Part shown: in pieces, positions 9,230-33,226 of the stretch | How positions within the stretch are numbered: position 1 is the stretch's first letter | How the letters are laid out: the number at the start of each line of letters is the position of its first letter | Virus record (IMG/VR): IMGVR_UViG_3300007735_000633 | Span: 1-33,226 of that record | DNA: 33,226 bases | Source: a virus | Direction: 5' to 3' (one strand) | The notes under the pieces: model-generated | Told to the model about the DNA's origin: nothing | Database searches by the model: none | Seen by the model: the letters and a program-made list of their open reading frames with translations, nothing else | Program-made: the position numbers and the translations under genes

Positions 9230-9889
9230 CTAGGGTTGTAGGATCTGCGTGAGGCGAGAAGGTACTGACCCTCTCGAGGCGACGTACCTTCGAAGCCTGT
9301 CAGCGATTGCGGTTTCAGCGTTTGCACCGTCGAGCGATGCGAGGAAGGATGCGGCGTCGGAGCGAGCGAGAGAGAGATCGGCGAAGGAACCATAAGCACC
9401 AAGCGCTCTGTTAAAGGCCGCTGCTACACCCTCAAGCTCCCTTTCGGTGTATGTCTGATCCGGCTTCGCGCTGGGCGTTGGTGCGATCTCCGCTTGTGCC
9501 GCGCGATCTTCCTCGGGGTCTTCTCCGGCGTTGTAGAGCCGGGCGTCGCGAAGCTCTTCCAGACGCGGCAGCGGATCCTTGCCGCGCCAAAGCACCTGAT
9601 ACCGATTGGTCAGCCATTTCGATTTCTGCCCGGGGTAGTACTCGGGTTTCAGCGGGCGCACGTACCCATGAGCCTCGAGGCGCTTTATCGCCGCCATGAC
9701 GGCCGCTCTCCCCAGCTTGGTATGACGTTGCAGGGTCTCATGCGTGGGCCAACAGACGCCCGCGCCGTTCGTGTAGAGGCCTAAGCCCAACAGGACCAGC
9801 CGGTCATTATGAGACAAACGCTTGTCGCCGACGCTGCGGGCAGGAACCACCGCCCAATTCCGCAGGTCTACAGGCTTTCCGTCTTCCAT
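9230..9889 (-). CDS. Winged-helix replication-initiator-like protein
   Basis: 219 residues. The N-terminal half (LSHNDRLVLLGLGLYTNGAGVCWPTHETLQRHTKLGRAAVMAAIKRLEAHGYVRPL, about residues 26-81) is a HTH_36-type winged helix as found in phage and plasmid replication initiators, followed by the wing strand KWLTNRYQVLW. The C-terminal half is Ala-rich helix without a recognised domain. GAGGG precedes the ATG. It faces away from the plus-strand cassette and could start leftward transcription into the terminase gap. Likely binds an origin or acts as a regulator; which is not decided by sequence. Confidence 0.65.
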   Translation of the reverse strand: MEDGKPVDLRNWAVVPARSVGDKRLSHNDRLVLLGLGLYTNGAGVCWPTHETLQRHTKLGRAAVMAAIKRLEAHGYVRPLKPEYYPGQKSKWLTNRYQVLWRGKDPLPRLEELRDARLYNAGEDPEEDRAAQAEIAPTPSAKPDQTYTERELEGVAAAFNRALGAYGSFADLSLARSDAASFLASLDGANAETAIADRLRRYVASRGSVPSRLTQILQP

Positions 9890-9958
9890 TTTTCCCTCGT
9901 GTTTTCAACGCCTTGCCACATTGATCGAACTTTTTTCGGTTGTCCTGTAATTTTTTTG

Positions 9959-9987
9959 TTGACGCCCGATCCGGCCTGTGACATTCT
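9959..9987 (+). promoter_or_regulatory. Promoter of the inverted DUF7227 cassette
   Basis: TTGACG (9959-9964), 17 bases, CATTCT (9982-9987). The -35 matches five of six consensus bases; the -10 is weaker. T-rich DNA (TTTTTT and TTTTTTT runs at 9931-9957) lies upstream and could act as an UP element. Predicted start near 9994, about 30 bases before the first ATG. Confidence 0.5.
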
Positions 9988-10023
9988 GTTTACACGGTCG
10001 CAATGACCACATGGGAGAGAACG

Positions 10024-10215
10024 ATGCACACCGCCGAATATCACGACGTCTACATGGGCTGGCAGAAGGCGACGCTCATCAAGAAGCGGAACGGGCGTTT
10101 CGTGTGGCGCGTCGTCGAGGGGGCGCAATGCGGGTTCGCCGCCACGGGTTTCCCTACTATCGACCGCGCAATCAAAGCGGCCGCGTCGGCGAAGAACTTC
10201 CGAAACGTCAAGTAA
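10024..10215 (+). CDS. 63-residue hypothetical protein, first gene of the inverted cassette
   Basis: MHTAEYHDVYMGWQKATLIK..., then NGRFVWRVVEGAQCGFAATGFPTIDRAIKAA. The ATG at 10024 is chosen because GGGAGAG lies six bases upstream; an upstream ATG at 10003 has no signal. Predicted as a small alpha/beta protein with a basic character. No family recognised. Directly follows the cassette promoter and precedes the DUF7227-type gene by 37 bases. Confidence 0.6.
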   Translation: MHTAEYHDVYMGWQKATLIKKRNGRFVWRVVEGAQCGFAATGFPTIDRAIKAAASAKNFRNVK

Positions 10216-10252
10216 TCGAACCGCCAAGGCGGCACAATGGGAGAAGACGACA

Positions 10253-10987
10253 ATGCAAAACCGCATCTTTTCTTTCGATAGCGCGAAAGCCGTGAAGGCT
10301 CAGGGTTATGGCTATCTCAACGCGATTCACTATATGGCACCCGCTTCTCTCGCCGGCGTCGGTAATCTCTGCCCGGACGCATCCGACGGATGCAAGGCGC
10401 TTTGTCTCGGCTGGCATAGTGGCCAAGCCGGCATGGTCGCGGACGACGCCGACCTTAATTCCGTCCGCCGTTCTCGCATCGACAAGGCGCGGCGTTTCAT
10501 GCGCGATCGCGCGGTTTATATGCGGGATGTGGTTCGATCGATCGAACTGGGCATTCTCAAAGCCCACAAGCTTGGCATGATGCTATGCGTCCGAATGAAC
10601 GGGTCCACCGATATCGCATGGCAAGGTATCGCGTGCGTCCGAAACGGCGTCCGGTATCGCAATTTGATGGAGGCTTTCCCCGATATTCAATTCGTCGATT
10701 ATACCAAGAGCGCGCGGCGTTTCGAACGCGCCTTGCCGGCGAATTATTCGCTCACTCTTTCGCGCCATGAGCACAACGAAGATGCGGCCGTCGCTCTTGT
10801 CGCGTCCGGTCGCGGCAATGCCGCCGTGGTATTCAAATCCGTACCGGAAACGTGGCGCGGCCTCACCGTCATCGACGGCGACAAGCACGATTTGCGGCAT
10901 TTGGATCCGCGCGGCGTTATCGTCGGACTGACGCCGAAAGGACGCAAAGCGAAACGCGACACTTCCGGTTTCGTGATCGCGGCATAA
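10253..10987 (+). CDS. DUF7227 / GP88-type protein
   Basis: 244 residues. Recognisable family features: YGYLNAIHYMAPASLAGVGNLCPDASDGCKALCLG with cysteines C40, C47 and C51, then SGQAG, RRSRIDKARRF, LCVRMNGSTDIAW (near 111-123), LMEAFPDIQFVDYTKSARRF, LPANYSLTLSRHEHNED, VVFKS, VIDGDKHDLRHLDPRGVIVGLTPKGRKAKRDTSGFV. This arrangement matches the DUF7227 / 'gene product 88' proteins of phages and plasmids. Function is unknown; the three close cysteines suggest a metal or Fe-S site, and the strongly conserved RxNGTSD-, YTK- and DGD-like motifs suggest an enzyme (inference). Good GGGAGAAG ribosome binding site. Largest gene of the cassette. Confidence 0.8.
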   Translation: MQNRIFSFDSAKAVKAQGYGYLNAIHYMAPASLAGVGNLCPDASDGCKALCLGWHSGQAGMVADDADLNSVRRSRIDKARRFMRDRAVYMRDVVRSIELGILKAHKLGMMLCVRMNGSTDIAWQGIACVRNGVRYRNLMEAFPDIQFVDYTKSARRFERALPANYSLTLSRHEHNEDAAVALVASGRGNAAVVFKSVPETWRGLTVIDGDKHDLRHLDPRGVIVGLTPKGRKAKRDTSGFVIAA

Positions 10988-11002
10988 CAGGGAGCAATGA
11001 CC

Positions 11003-11170
11003 ATGGACCGCACCATGATTAAGCACGTCTCCGCCTATCACCGCGCTATCGCACGCCGCAACGCCGCGCGCGAACTGGCAATCGATATCATCGAAACAAT
11101 CGCCGCGATATGCGGCGCTATCGGAATTGTCGCAATCGTGGCGCTTGTCGCGCTGGTAATGGGAGCCTGA
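11003..11170 (+). CDS. 55-residue single-pass membrane protein
   Basis: MDRTMIKHVSAYHRAIARRN..., a basic amphipathic N-terminus followed by one hydrophobic segment IAAICGAIGIVAIVALVALVMG at about residues 33-54, ending at once after it. GGGAG lies eight bases before the ATG at 11003; another in-frame ATG at 10997 is too close to that signal. The layout (cytoplasmic basic head, C-terminal anchor) suggests an inner-membrane protein with its bulk inside. Sits between the DUF7227-type gene and the cassette's last gene. Role unknown. Confidence 0.6.
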   Translation: MDRTMIKHVSAYHRAIARRNAARELAIDIIETIAAICGAIGIVAIVALVALVMGA

Positions 11171-11173
11171 ACC

Positions 11174-11500
11174 ATGAAAACCTATAAGCCGAAAAAAGGA
11201 CACGTCGTCGCGATTGAGCGGGTGCATTCCAACCATTTTCTACCGCTCGGAAAGCGAGAAGAATATCGCGACTGGACACTAGGGCGCGCGGCGCGCGTCA
11301 CCCGTGCCGGAATTGTCGAGGCTTTCTATCTCGGATCAACCGATCAACCCGGCATGCTATGGTCAGTAGATCGCACGACACGCGTCGCCGTCATCAGCGA
11401 TGACGCGTTGCGCGACAAAGCCAAGCGATTGCTGGAATCGCGTGGCCATGAACCCTTCGAAACCGCCGACGAATTGAAGGCCGCAATCGTCGCGGCGTAA
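11174..11500 (+). CDS. 108-residue hypothetical protein, last gene of the inverted cassette
   Basis: MKTYKPKKGHVVAIERVHSN..., with beta-rich N-terminal half (WTLGRAARVTRAGIVEAFYLG, MLWSVDRTTRVAVISDDAL) and a C-terminal helix pair (LRDKAKRLLESRGHEPFETADELKAAIVAA). GGGAGCCTGAACC precedes the ATG, using the same ribosome binding site style as its neighbours. Three bases separate it from the membrane-protein stop. Followed by the cassette terminator. No family recognised. Confidence 0.6.
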   Translation: MKTYKPKKGHVVAIERVHSNHFLPLGKREEYRDWTLGRAARVTRAGIVEAFYLGSTDQPGMLWSVDRTTRVAVISDDALRDKAKRLLESRGHEPFETADELKAAIVAA

Positions 11501-11521
11501 CCCGGCAAGCAGGAACGAATT

Positions 11522-11550
11522 AGAGGGCCAAGCACGGCCCTCTTTTTTTT
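11522..11550 (+). terminator. Strong rho-independent terminator of the inverted cassette
   Basis: Perfect 8-base stem AGAGGGCC (11522-11529) / GGCCCTCT (11536-11543), 6-base loop AAGCAC, then seven more T (11544-11550). The minus strand lacks a T tract, so it acts only on rightward transcripts and ends the 10024-11500 unit. Confidence 0.92.
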
Positions 11551-11620
11551 CGGCTGGTATAGTAGCGCCCGCCCCATCGAAGCCCGCTCAGCGGCGCTCT
11601 ATGTGGCGCGGCGCGATATC

Positions 11621-11941
11621 TCAAAACGGCAAAGAGTCGTCCAACTCATCGCGCAGCGCAGGGGCGGGCGATGCAGCACCACGACCCGCGACCGTTCGAG
11701 CGCGCGGCGCGTCCTGCGCGGGAACCGAGCGCGGAGCATCCGAGCGCGGCTCTTTCCGGCGCACCTTCAACGCCATGTAGCGCGTCCCATCCGGCCATTG
11801 TTTCAGGGTCGCATCGATCCAAAAATCCGTTCCTTCGACGTTCAATTCGCCCCGATAGTCCGGGTGCCAGTCTTCCTGCTTCTTGTCGTTTTTCCGAAGC
11901 TTGCCTTTGTTCGTCGCGTCGTACTGTCCCGAGATTGCCAT
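11621..11941 (-). CDS. SSB-like protein with acidic C-terminal tip
   Basis: 106 residues. The N-terminal half (NKGKLRKNDKKQEDWHPDYRGELNVEGTDFWIDATLKQWPDGTRYMALKVRRKE) resembles the short OB-fold-like phage proteins with an 'HPDYxGxxxVxGxxxWxxxxxK...GxxxLxLxVxxK' pattern. A disordered Pro/Ala/Arg linker follows, then the end DELDDSLPF, which closely matches the bacterial SSB tip (D-D-x-[IL]-P-F) that recruits DNA-processing partners. Likely coats ssDNA and loads host proteins. GGGAGA ribosome binding site. Last gene of a replication operon with the initiator-like gene. The OB fold is inferred; the tip is seen directly. Confidence 0.72.
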   Translation of the reverse strand: MAISGQYDATNKGKLRKNDKKQEDWHPDYRGELNVEGTDFWIDATLKQWPDGTRYMALKVRRKEPRSDAPRSVPAQDAPRARTVAGRGAASPAPALRDELDDSLPF

Positions 11942-11944
11942 GGG

Positions 11945-12436
11945 TCATTCTCCCAGTTCGGCGTTGCAAAAATCGCGATACTCTTTCGAGTTCACGTCGA
12001 TCATTTCACCCGGCTTGCGCGAGCGGCAATACCGTTGAAACACGTCGGGCGAGAAGCGGTCCGCTTGTCCGGACCCTTTCATCGAGCGCGCAAGACGGTC
12101 GAACTCTGCGATCAATCGAGCGCGGGTTTCCGCTGTTTCGACGTCCGCCGAGCGACCGAGCGCGAGCACCTGATATTCGCGGCGCGGATACGCGGTGTCG
12201 TATTGCCAGGGATACAGGGTCGGAACCGTGTACGTTCCCCCGGTGACGACCCGGTACCGCAGGTGCGCGGCCTTCTTCGTCAAGCCGTTGACGGTGAAGT
12301 AATGGTGCCACGCGACGGCGGGCAATCCGTCCGTCAGCATCACGCCGATCATCCCGTCCGGGCCGACGCGACGTTTCATGTATTCGAGCGCGAGCTTGTC
12401 CCACTCGGGCATAGTGCTTTCAGCGCCAACCTTCAT
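11945..12436 (-). CDS. Unknown protein in replication operon
   Basis: 163 residues. Starts MKVGAESTMPEWDKLALEYM; ATG at 12436 has AGGAGG seven bases away, but MPEWDK at 12412 is possible. Visible features are LTDGLPAVAWHHYFTVNGLTKKAAHLRYRVV, a Tyr/Pro-rich segment (YTVPTLYPWQYDTAYPRREYQVLAL), then a long helix (ADVETAETRARLIAEFDRLARSM) and a basic C-terminal part. It overlaps the upstream initiator-like gene by 17 bases and is four bases from the SSB-like gene, so it probably belongs to the replication unit. No family recognised. Confidence 0.6.
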   Translation of the reverse strand: MKVGAESTMPEWDKLALEYMKRRVGPDGMIGVMLTDGLPAVAWHHYFTVNGLTKKAAHLRYRVVTGGTYTVPTLYPWQYDTAYPRREYQVLALGRSADVETAETRARLIAEFDRLARSMKGSGQADRFSPDVFQRYCRSRKPGEMIDVNSKEYRDFCNAELGE

Positions 12437-13172
12437 TGGCCTTCCTCCTCATGAACACCGCGTGTAAACGGTCGTACTCTTCGTATTCGTGAGGCTCCAG
12501 CGCGGTGCCCCGATCATTGTACCACTGGTAAAGAACCACCGGATCGTCGGTCGCCGGGCGCGGAGCGGTTTTCCCCGACACCGTGCTCGCCTCGTCCAAG
12601 AAGCTGCCACGGTTGAGCCACGTCGCCGGGTGCGGAACGAACTGGATCTCGTCCGAGAAAGTGTAGCTACCGAGAGCCGCCATGATCGTCGCATGATCGA
12701 CGGACTTCCGCGCCTTGGTATACGCCTTCTCGGCAGCCACCTTCCCTACCTTCCTCGGATAGATCTTCCAGAAGCTTTCGAAGTCAGCGAGCGCGAGCGA
12801 GCGAGAAGGTTTCTCTTTACCTGTTTCTTTTACAGGTTTGGGTAGCACGGTGCCACCCTCGGGGGTAGCACCATGCAACCCTAGGGGTAGCACCATGCTA
12901 TCCCCCATATGCAGATTGTACCTGTACCCGAGCGTCCGACCTTGAAGGTCAGTGACCAGCACCCTCGACAAGAAACCCTTCTGTTCAAGAGACTGGGTCG
13001 CACGCCGCGCGGTGTCCCGGCTAGTGCATGTGTCGTCCGCGATGCGATCCAAGCTCGGAAAGCAATCGCCCGTATCGGCGTTGTGCCGATCAGCAAGCGC
13101 CAGCAAGATCAGCTTCTCGGACGACGAGATGCCGCTTACTGACCAAGCCCAGTGTGTGGCCTTGTGAGACAT
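12420..13172 (-). CDS. Phage O-like replication initiator / replisome organiser
   Basis: 250 residues. N-terminal winged helix (SSEKLILLALADRHNADTGDCFPSLDRIADDTCTSRDTARRATQSLEQKGFLSRV, about residues 16-70) of HTH_36 type. After a Lys/Pro linker, the C-terminal domain shows FESFWKIYPRKVGKVAAEKAYTKARK and FVPHPATWLNRGSFLDE, the standard motifs of phage O-like / DnaD-like replication proteins. It should bind the origin and help load the host helicase. GATAGGAG is upstream of the ATG. First gene of a three-gene leftward operon with the unknown and SSB-like genes. Confidence 0.82.
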   Translation of the reverse strand: MSHKATHWAWSVSGISSSEKLILLALADRHNADTGDCFPSLDRIADDTCTSRDTARRATQSLEQKGFLSRVLVTDLQGRTLGYRYNLHMGDSMVLPLGLHGATPEGGTVLPKPVKETGKEKPSRSLALADFESFWKIYPRKVGKVAAEKAYTKARKSVDHATIMAALGSYTFSDEIQFVPHPATWLNRGSFLDEASTVSGKTAPRPATDDPVVLYQWYNDRGTALEPHEYEEYDRLHAVFMRRKANEGWR

Positions 13173-13803: not shown

Positions 13804-14013
13804 TCAATGCCCCCTGATCCACAAAGTCATCAGCATGTGCGCGTCCACACCTTCCAAGCCCGCTTCCTTGGCAAGCTGGATGATGGTGGGCCAGTACTTC
13901 ACCGGGATGTGACCCCGGTAGCAGTAGCCCCGCACGTTGAACGATTCGATCCCGAGTCGTTCCGCCACGCGGACGTATCCGCCCAGCGCCTCGATCAGTT
14001 CTTTTGCCGTCAT
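13804..14013 (-). CDS. Cro/CI-type small HTH regulator
   Basis: 69 residues starting MTAKELIEALGGYVRVAERLG; the start at 14013 is fixed by ACGGAGGTTCAG just before the ATG (frame stays open further up to 14118). The helix-turn-helix spans roughly residues 10-35 (YVRVAERLGIESFNVRGYCYRGHIPVKYWPTIIQLAKEAGL), matching the small phage repressor/Cro family sometimes called carph-isopro domain. Likely binds the divergent promoter region right next to its own gene, repressing one or both directions. Its transcript is short and stopped by the hairpin at 13730-13764. Which gene set it represses is inference. Confidence 0.8.
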   Translation of the reverse strand: MTAKELIEALGGYVRVAERLGIESFNVRGYCYRGHIPVKYWPTIIQLAKEAGLEGVDAHMLMTLWIRGH

Positions 14014-14035
14014 CTGAACCTCCGTAACTTTTTTT

Positions 14036-14064
14036 CTCATACCGTGTAGATTTCCTGTTGACAA
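14036..14064 (-). promoter_or_regulatory. Leftward promoter of the HTH regulator
   Basis: Minus strand TTGTCA (14059-14064), 17 bases, TATGAG (14036-14041). Its -35 shares bases with the -35 of the rightward promoter, so the two cannot easily fire together. The leader to the ATG at 14013 is about 16 bases and contains the strong ribosome binding site. Confidence 0.55.
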
Positions 14065-14085
14065 GCCCGGTGCAACAATTATGTT
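14058..14085 (+). promoter_or_regulatory. Rightward early promoter
   Basis: TTGACA (14058-14063, perfect -35), 16 bases, TATGTT (14080-14085). Predicted start near 14092, 38 bases before the ATG of the first early gene. Would drive the 14130-18153 operon. Confidence 0.65.
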
Positions 14086-14086
14086 G
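14073..14086. promoter_or_regulatory. Operator-like palindrome over the early promoter
   Basis: CAACA-ATTA-TGTTG: 5-base arms and a 4-base centre, covering the -10 of the rightward promoter. Position and size suit a binding site for the adjacent HTH regulator. I saw no second full copy in the window. Confidence 0.45.
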
Positions 14087-14129
14087 TGAGCATCGCCGCA
14101 CAAAAAATCACGCGGCACGGGAGCAGAAC

Positions 14130-14707: not shown

Positions 14708-14927
14708 AAAGAACATCCCGATCCCCCCGAGGTCGAACAACCCTAGGGGCCGTCAGATGTCGGACATCACGCTTGCGTTGCTCGGCATGGAAGTCGGCGA
14801 TTCGTTCGTGACGGAGCGCCCCAGCAACAAGCTCAGTGGCTTCTTTGTGTTCGCGCGAAAGAAGAAAGGCTTCCGGTTTTGCACTCGGAAGGTCGAGGGC
14901 GGCACGCGTATTTGGAGGACCGCATGA
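14691..14927 (+). CDS. DUF7303-like small phage protein
   Basis: 78 residues: MQIVIEKNIPIPPRSNNPRG, then ALLGMEVGDSFVTERP, FFVFARKKKGFRFCTRKVEGGTRIWRTA. The 'IEKNIPIP...MEVGDSFxx....xxxxARKxGxxFxxRxxxGGxRIWRx' layout matches a common small phage protein (DUF7303-type) of unknown function. AGGAAGAG precedes the ATG; it overlaps the previous gene by 17 bases. Basic and beta-rich, possibly nucleic-acid binding. Confidence 0.72.
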   Translation: MQIVIEKNIPIPPRSNNPRGRQMSDITLALLGMEVGDSFVTERPSNKLSGFFVFARKKKGFRFCTRKVEGGTRIWRTA

Positions 14928-15541
14928 ACATTCATCAGCGTCTGGCTCAGGCGATGCGCAACATCACCTACATCCAGAAGGAGAAGAAGGCGGGGATGCG
15001 CTACAGCATCGTCAGCCACGATGCGGTGACGGCGAAGGTACGTCCCGCCCTGCTGGATGCGGGCATCGTCTACTACCCGGTCAGGACCATGTGCGCTCAG
15101 GCGGGCAACCGCACAGAGGCCATGATGACCATCCGCTTCGTCAACATCGACGACCCGGCGGATGCATTCGAGGTCGAGACGTTCGGCTACGGCATCGACG
15201 ATCAGGACAAGGGGCCGGGTAAGGCCATGTCCTACGCGGTGAAGTACGCGCTGCTGAAGACGCTCGGCCTTGAAACGGGCGACGATCCCGATCTCGATCA
15301 GGACGTGCGCTTCTCCGAGAAGGCCGACCCCGGCAAGCCGAAGTCCTCTTACTCGCTGAAGAAGGAGAACCCCGGTCGCTGGAACGAGGTCGAGCAGATG
15401 ATCCGTCAGTGCAACAGCGTGGATCTGCTGAAGGATCTGAAGACCATGCTGCGGGACGAAGCCATGACGTGGCCCACGACGTGGCGCGAAGCCTTCAACG
15501 AAGAGTATGAGGCGCGGCGCATCGCGTTGGCGGGCGAGTGA
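14924..15541 (+). CDS. erf: ERF-family single-strand annealing protein
   Basis: 205 residues. MNIHQRLAQAMRNITYIQKE, then GMRYSIVSHDAVTAKVRPALLDAGIVYYPV, VRFVNIDDPADAFEVETFGYGIDDQDKGPGKAMSYAVKYALLKTLGLETGDDPD, which is the typical ERF superfamily core (vxxxxxxAlxxxGixxxP ... gxgxDxxDKgxxKAxSYAxKYaLlklfxietgdDpD). It anneals complementary single strands during phage recombination and genome circularisation. Ideal GGAGG ribosome binding site and ATGA overlap with the previous gene. Works logically with the SSB-like protein and RusA. C-terminal 70 residues are variable. Confidence 0.9.
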   Translation: MNIHQRLAQAMRNITYIQKEKKAGMRYSIVSHDAVTAKVRPALLDAGIVYYPVRTMCAQAGNRTEAMMTIRFVNIDDPADAFEVETFGYGIDDQDKGPGKAMSYAVKYALLKTLGLETGDDPDLDQDVRFSEKADPGKPKSSYSLKKENPGRWNEVEQMIRQCNSVDLLKDLKTMLRDEAMTWPTTWREAFNEEYEARRIALAGE

Positions 15542-32079: not shown

Positions 32080-32694
32080 TCACGCCCTCACGAAGATGTA
32101 ATCGCGTCCGATCTTCTCAGAGACCTTATACCCCAAAGCATCCATCAGGTCGAATGTCTGCTGATCCGAATGCCCGTATCGTTGTCCCAGCCCTTTAAGC
32201 TCCAGCACGACCACAGGCAAGCACTGATGAATGGTCTTCGTTGCGCCCAAGATTGCCGAATGCTCGGACCCTTCGATGTCCAGCCAGAGCAGATCAAGAT
32301 CTTCCAGACCGAGGTCATCAATGGTCACAGTGGGGATCGTGCCGCTGCTGGAGACCTGATGCGCCCCGATATTGTTGGGCTTGATCCGGTCCACGCCGAC
32401 CGTGCCGTGAAAGTCGGTCAGCGCCGCATTGCGCGTAATGATGTTCTCGATCTCGCCCACATTCATCTTCAGCGCGGTGAAGTTGTCGGGGTCAAGCTCG
32501 AACGTATGCACGGTCTGGAAGAAGCGCGACAGAATGCTGGGGAAGATCCCGATGTTGCCGCCCGCTTGCAGACAGGTACGACGATGCACGCACTTCCGCG
32601 CCACATGCGGGATCATGCCCGCTTCGATCATGATCGCACCGAAAGCGCGCTTGTCGTCAGCCGGAACGTGCCAGCCGTCGATCATCGTAAACAT
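32080..32694 (-). CDS. FkbM-type SAM methyltransferase
   Basis: 204 residues starting MFTMIDGWHVPADDKRAFGA; ATG at 32694 preceded by GAGGTG; a start at 32706 lies four codons further up. SAM site: QAGGNIGIFP (about 43-52), FELDPDNF (about 65-72), LLWLDIEGSEHSAILG (about 135-150) and IPTVTIDDLGLEDLDLLWL form the FkbM family set. Methyltransferases of this type modify sugars, including phage or host surface glycans. Overlaps the glycosyltransferase gene by 38 bases, hinting at shared use with it. Substrate unknown. Confidence 0.85.
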   Translation of the reverse strand: MFTMIDGWHVPADDKRAFGAIMIEAGMIPHVARKCVHRRTCLQAGGNIGIFPSILSRFFQTVHTFELDPDNFTALKMNVGEIENIITRNAALTDFHGTVGVDRIKPNNIGAHQVSSSGTIPTVTIDDLGLEDLDLLWLDIEGSEHSAILGATKTIHQCLPVVVLELKGLGQRYGHSDQQTFDLMDALGYKVSEKIGRDYIFVRA

Positions 32695-33226
32695 ACGGCA
32701 CCTCATCCTGTTCCCATGGCCGGGGCTGGCCGTGGAAGAAGATCACTCGCGCATCTTTCGGCACACCCTTGCCGCGCACATCCACCTTGTACGAGACGAA
32801 CTGACCGGGCAACTCGTCTTGGATGTACGTAGTTGTACGTAGTACGTCTTCGATGAATGCCTGATCGCCACCCTTCATCTTCATGTATCGGGGCGCGTCG
32901 ATGGCGAACACCGTGTAGAGCGGGCGGATGTTCTCGTTCCACATCATCACGCTGGACTGCATGGCATAGGGATTGTGCTTGCCCCGGTAGGCATCACGCA
33001 GGATCGCGAACGGAACCGTTCTGGCTAGTTCGCCGGCTTGTTCGAGCGAGCCGCAGACGATGGTGTCCAGATCGAAATAGATGCACGGTCCCGGCAGCTT
33101 GAACATCTCCATCTTGGACCACCAGATGGGCCAGTTCTCCGTCAGCGGCACCACGTCGCCACGCTTCAGATCCGACAGACACACGAAGTCGTGCGGGATA
33201 CCCGCATGGTCGGCGCTCACAAAAGT
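32657..33226 (-). CDS. Glycosyltransferase-like protein, 5' end cut by window end
   Basis: Same protein as the gene at the window start, here with its 3' end: FDLDTIVCG, GGDQAFIEDVL, then QFVSYKVDVRGKGVPKDARVIFFHGQPRPW (the FFHGQPRPW-like C-terminal block is usual for this phage glycosyltransferase type). Stop at 32657. The frame is open to 33226 and beyond; a GTG at 33218-33220 is available but probably not the real start, because the left copy has 25 more residues upstream. The last ten bases (33217-33226) no longer match the left copy. Most likely the same gene as at 1-553, split by linearisation. Confidence 0.78.
   Translation of the reverse strand, partial: TFVSADHAGIPHDFVCLSDLKRGDVVPLTENWPIWWSKMEMFKLPGPCIYFDLDTIVCGSLEQAGELARTVPFAILRDAYRGKHNPYAMQSSVMMWNENIRPLYTVFAIDAPRYMKMKGGDQAFIEDVLRTTTYIQDELPGQFVSYKVDVRGKGVPKDARVIFFHGQPRPWEQDEVPYVYDDRRLARSG
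32740..33216. repeat. Right copy of imperfect terminal direct repeat
   Basis: Ungapped match to 1-477 with 15 substitutions. Homology stops sharply at 33217, ten bases before the window end. Contains the same internal microrepeat (two TGTACGTAGT units, 32824-32843). Confidence 0.9.

Follow-up and report, generated by a model that had tools for sequence, protein, structure and literature searches.

A lineage-fixed, inverted accessory slot in a tailed phage and its exchangeable cargo, including a GP88 protein with a predicted radical-SAM-like fold

Four genes of a tailed phage run against the direction of the replication genes on either side of them, which raises the question of whether they form a self-contained unit that arrived as a whole and of what the largest of them does for the phage. 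The window analysed here is a stretch of 33,226 bases, an IMG/VR virus record, that encodes a head-tail connector, tail proteins and an Erf-type recombinase. An earlier note on this DNA had described the four genes as a moron-like cassette built around a DUF7227-type protein. We compared the segment with homologous loci of related phages, and modelled and classified its main product.

An inverted gene block within a conserved transcriptional frame

The cassette consists of four plus-strand genes, inverted relative to the leftward repA and SSB genes that flank it, and a GGGAG site is present upstream of each of them. Gene coordinates and upstream sites thus agree with the layout first described. 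The earlier note had also placed the block between two replication-initiator-like genes; both HTH_36 initiators are indeed present, but the immediate neighbours are repA and SSB. The features are the following.

9230-9889, minus strand: repA-like HTH_36 replication initiator (PF13730, E 3e-11; PHROG 270), divergent, bounding the promoter side of the slot
9959-9987, plus strand: slot promoter, TTGACG-17-CATTCT, supported by comparison of homologous loci with shuffles
10024-10215, plus strand: 63-aa gene with a GGGAG site, orphan cargo, no relatives found
10253-10987, plus strand: GP88 (PF17338), 244 aa, with cysteines 40, 47 and 51; assigned by Pfam, PHROG and models, radical-SAM-like fold predicted
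11003-11170, plus strand: 55-aa single-pass membrane protein, recurrent slot component with a homolog in L400
11174-11500, plus strand: 108-aa gene, orphan cargo, no relatives found
11522-11551, plus strand (sense only): one-way intrinsic terminator AGAGGGCC-AAGCAC-GGCCCTCT-T8, stem at 11522-11543, 11511-11551 with its GAATTA flank; conserved in relatives
11621-11941, minus strand: SSB, single-strand DNA-binding protein (PHROG 18154, E 6e-10), bounding the terminator side of the slot
11945-12436, minus strand: backbone gene of 163 aa, also found with SSB in relatives
12420-13172, minus strand: second HTH_36 replication initiator, repB (PF13730, E 5e-16; PHROG 270, E 2e-40)

The membrane protein most likely starts at 11003: the ATG at 10997 leaves too little distance to the ribosome site, and 11003 is also where the alignment with the L400 homolog begins. 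Elsewhere in the window, a YdaS-like/Cro-type regulator (13804-14118, minus strand; PF15943, E 1e-4, below cut-off) lies at the boundary to a rightward block with the Erf-like recombinase (14879-15541), and a methyltransferase-like protein is encoded at 32080-32706 on the minus strand (PHROG 8156, E 4e-26). Rfam and tRNA scans of the window gave no match, and neither did NCBIfam and PADLOC searches.

Relatives were gathered by TerL and repA, many of them being contig fragments, and their neighbour and slot genes were called by simple open-frame rules. The same inverted region was found in them between SSB (or repB) and repA. In 20 of 24 homologous loci the stretch from repA to the first gene contains a TTGAC-type promoter at the same place, whereas shuffled sequences gave 2.0 on average and never more than 7. 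Since a generic sigma-70 scan did not call the site in the window, the evidence for the promoter that the earlier note had proposed is comparative. The strong one-way terminator that it had placed behind the cassette was borne out as well. A generic scan gave about as many sites in the sequence as in shuffles (5 against 4.3), but the slot terminator, which acts in the plus sense only, is the strongest of them. Ten aligned slots share this terminator beside SSB, along with the flank GAATTAGAGGGGC, and where its stem differs among relatives the changes come in matching pairs (GGGCC/GGCCC, GGGGC/GCCCC). Promoter and terminator are, firmly, a conserved frame of the phage lineage, inside which the genes are exchanged. 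The base composition of the cassette equals that of its surroundings (GC 58-59%). Site-specific insertion of the cassette is unsupported, as no obvious repeats were found framing it.

Exchange of cargo among related phages

Comparison of the slots revealed different main genes at the same place. GP88 is the cargo in the window and in L002, L083, L084, L086, L404, L416 and L421. ArdC was identified by Pfam, with both domains (PF08401 and PF18818), in L082, L089 and L091, and by sequence match in L088, L102, L397, L413, L414 and L419. DUF7249 (PF23907) occupies the slots of L400 (3854-4081), L401 (3909-4241), L399 (3729-3998; match below the curated cut-off) and L096 (4482-4814), DUF7227 that of L410 (E 1e-83), and the slot of L394 holds small genes only. 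The families GP88, ArdC, DUF7249 and DUF7227 never occur two together in any slot examined; under independence, such exclusivity would have a chance of 9e-7 for 23 slots and of about 1e-3 for a conservative 13, both figures being inflated by shared ancestry in this small sample of related loci. The exchange is most direct between L404 and L410, where GP88 is replaced by DUF7227 between flanks that are about 85% identical on both sides. In the GP88 protein tree, the slot members are spread over four separate branches, and the GP88 of the window is 80% identical to that of L003, in which no backbone genes of the window phage were found, but only 41% identical to that of its slot-mate L083. Scattered positions and identities of this kind point to repeated horizontal exchange of GP88, which would proceed by recombination within the slot frame.

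The small genes of the cassette behave differently from one another. Searches of 80 GP88 loci, of the slot loci and of phage records gave no homolog of the 63-aa gene, and GP88 loci, slots and phage records likewise gave no relative of the 108-aa gene. The 55-aa membrane protein has a homolog in L400 (E 1.6e-12), whose slot lacks GP88, and similar single-pass proteins of 27-31 aa are present in the slots of L002, L083, L084, L396, L397, L399 and L401, with GP88, ArdC or neither. The mini membrane protein belongs to the slot and not to GP88. The comparison of neighbourhoods suggested in the earlier note therefore gave a divided answer: most GP88 neighbours, the 63- and 108-aa genes among them, do not recur, which the note had itself named as an outcome against its reading, and the small membrane protein does recur, following the slot. 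Its presence in slots without GP88 is the reason for rejecting a GP88-membrane protein pair and leaves the proposed tethering of the system to the envelope unsupported.

Further small genes were observed in the relatives. A gene of 70-74 aa stands just before the terminator in L084, L404 and L410, beside different main genes, its L084 and L404 versions ending in DRGxxxxRAWxDxNxEL. Another, of 76-79 aa and starting M(R/K)xIQVxYL, is a mix-and-match member of the L394, L400 and L410 slots. A gene of 105-108 aa (MRNLDAIINQLANEQ...), without a Pfam match, is kept in L396, L397 and L399 (3033-3356 in L399) while ArdC or DUF7249 changes alongside.

These comparisons bear on whether the block is a classical moron, that is, whether its four genes arrived together with their signals and either benefit the lysogen or, by way of the membrane protein, keep other phages out. 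The promoter and terminator of its own, as in morons, the inverted orientation and the existence of relatives without the slot would fit such an origin. However, the slot is absent only from distant relatives (MEP301 and nine more distant loci, L115 included), and every close relative examined has it with some cargo. The frame is common to relatives with other cargo, so that promoter and terminator do not travel with the genes; neither the 63-aa nor the 108-aa gene turned up again beside GP88; the membrane protein is found in slots without GP88; and the composition is native. A co-transferred four-gene unit is thus largely refuted and we regard a classical moron as very improbable. What remains of the original description is an independent transcription unit with accessory cargo, for which "accessory slot" is the better term than moron, because the promoter/terminator frame is conserved while the genes inside are exchanged.

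GP88 family and predicted fold

The 244-aa product had been described as a DUF7227-type protein. Pfam assigns it instead to GP88 (PF17338; E 5e-36, 125.1 bits against a cut-off of 24.4, covering positions 8-228 of the 230 of the profile), with no match to DUF7227 (PF23872) at E up to 1, yet it is DUF7227 that replaces GP88 in L410. The match to PHROG 1617 (E 5e-57) agrees with the GP88 assignment. GP88 was present in 264 of 50,697 phage records, cluster-A mycobacteriophages and pelagiphages among them, and in 1 of 72,556 plasmids. It is thus common in phages and nearly absent from plasmids, and a functional description of GP88, DUF7227 or DUF5131 was not found in the literature searched. In a tally around diverse GP88 genes, the neighbours were mostly replication, packaging or unknown genes; no single partner emerged among the neighbour families (DUF932, primase/Toprim, terminases, DNA methylases), nor a strong link to anti-restriction genes.

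The earlier note had recognized a three-cysteine, metal-type motif in a probable enzyme, and both conservation and modelling are in keeping with this. Of 58 diverse GP88 homologs (identity filter 65%), all have C40 and C47 and 98% have C51, and R114, D120, Y150, T151, S170, D213, K229 and G230 are invariant. AlphaFold models of the window GP88 (46 sequences) and of the divergent L083 GP88 (57 sequences) both reached a pLDDT of 92 and a pTM of 0.89. In a structural second look, radical-SAM enzymes, among them PFL activase, viperin, NifB, QueE, TYW1, RlmN, EpeE and spore photoproduct lyase, filled every rank from 1 to 16 with one model and from 1 to 32 with the other, above unrelated barrels; the Z values of 4.9-6.7 are modest and, being below 8, may mean only a common arrangement according to the warning of the tool. 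Direct Foldseek comparison of GP88 with the PDB gave no match below E 0.07, and a plain sequence search of solved structures gave none. In the model of the window GP88, a strand at 21-25 is followed by a loop containing cysteines 40, 47 and 51, and the next long helix begins at 70. The GP88 fold is likely to be radical-SAM-like, rather than proven to be so, because the Z values are modest and Foldseek returned no significant match.

Alternatively, the cysteines might bind zinc or a structural iron-sulfur cluster in another TIM-like barrel. The spacing CX6-7CX3C, which departs from the canonical CX3CX2C, would allow this, as would the middling Z values and the Foldseek result. In contrast, with both models the best-ranked structures are radical-SAM enzymes alone, ahead of other TIM barrels; the cysteine loop has the position seen in those enzymes, after strand 1; and GP88 has a weak profile similarity to DUF5131, another three-cysteine family. 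Such a barrel is therefore unlikely. The similarity to DUF5131 is suggestive, not significant: real GP88 proteins score better against its profile (8e-6) than shuffled or reversed ones (0.036), but the window GP88 has no Pfam match to it, and the profile-profile probability is under 3%. DUF5131 was found in 17 of 198 and 32 of 299 sampled bacterial genomes. At the level of sequence profiles there are hints of a distant tie of GP88 to both DUF7227 and DUF5131. A tentative and rather doubtful extension would join GP88, DUF7227 and perhaps DUF5131 in one phage-centred superfamily of radical-SAM-like proteins with a non-canonical three-cysteine motif, chemically disarming restriction or related defences and interchangeable with ArdC. 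If true, this would be an anti-defence enzyme class without description in the literature searched.

Possible role of the slot and comparison with known systems

ArdC overcomes host restriction in conjugation (PMC7213743). Because it fills the same slot in relatives of the window phage, an anti-restriction role of GP88 can be inferred, by this association only, and the anti-defence function that the earlier note had offered is a plausible one. Taken with the exchange series, this is most simply read as a slot for early counter-defence cargo, in which GP88 would be a SAM-dependent counterpart to ArdC. According to this proposal, the slot promoter would drive early synthesis of GP88, a [4Fe-4S] cluster cleaving S-adenosylmethionine would be bound by the three cysteines that follow the first strand, and the enzyme would chemically alter a nucleic acid, a nucleotide or a host protein, so that incoming phage DNA might escape restriction or a similar defence; GP88 would thus fill the place held by ArdC in sister phages. 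The first (early) genes of T7-like phages, including anti-restriction genes, usually lie near the genome end. In HMO-2011, HTVC120P, HTVC134P, HTVC309P, HTVC115P, Lo5R7ANS, CRP-6 and cluster-A mycobacteriophages, GP88 lies no more than about 2 kb from an end of the genome. The exchange of GP88 for ArdC in the slot suggests that GP88 may help a phage through its first minutes inside a cell with active defences. Counting against such a role are the PADLOC search, which had no match, and the neighbours of GP88 elsewhere, among which no strong link to anti-restriction genes was seen.

The main rival to this proposal keeps a radical-SAM-like enzyme and gives it a task in host takeover or metabolism, acting for example on host tRNA, protein or the nucleotide pool and not against restriction, in a slot that accepts any early cargo. 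Slots also hold cargo unrelated to ArdC, namely DUF7249 and orphan genes, for which no anti-restriction function is known, and the enzymes nearest in fold vary widely in function (PFL activase, QueE, TYW1, viperin, RlmN, NifB). On the other hand, the four main families exclude one another and DUF7227 replaces GP88 precisely, which suggests shared selection, although limited slot space may also explain the exclusivity. We consider host takeover a real possibility, if one of less than even probability. The reading as a whole, in which a fixed slot with exchanged cargo carries in GP88 a radical-SAM-like enzyme that counters host defence, stands at about an even chance. The segment itself is firmly a lineage-fixed, inverted accessory slot, and anti-defence or host-takeover genes are the best reading of its cargo. 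The natural exchange series of GP88, DUF7227, ArdC and DUF7249 at one site is a reason to test families of unknown function as counter-defence genes, and the fold prediction for GP88 names a chemistry to assay.

Compared with known systems, the product of the window shares with Pfam GP88 and PHROG 1617 a full-length, significant match and the same conserved residues; what the present analysis adds to the family is a location in an exchangeable slot and a predicted radical-SAM-like fold. DUF7227 takes its place in a near-identical slot and has a weak, colinear profile similarity to it over 191 columns (hhalign E 9e-4, probability 23%), but differs in lacking a direct sequence match to the window GP88, in the spacing of its first three cysteines (CX3CX6C) and in having a second cysteine group. 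DUF5131 (phage Gp37/Gp68, PF07505) shares a three-cysteine motif (CX6CX2C in the members aligned) and similarly ordered later motifs. With PFL activase, viperin, QueE, TYW1 and NifB, GP88 would share the predicted barrel and the cysteine loop after strand 1, unlike them in its cysteine spacing and with Z values of only about 5-6.7. Phage morons are likewise extra transcription units with their own promoter and terminator, whereas the slot of the window has a lineage-fixed frame, exchanged cargo and native composition. Finally, ArdC (PMC7213743) occupies the same slot in sister phages, although it is a protein unrelated to GP88, with ssDNA-binding and metalloprotease domains.
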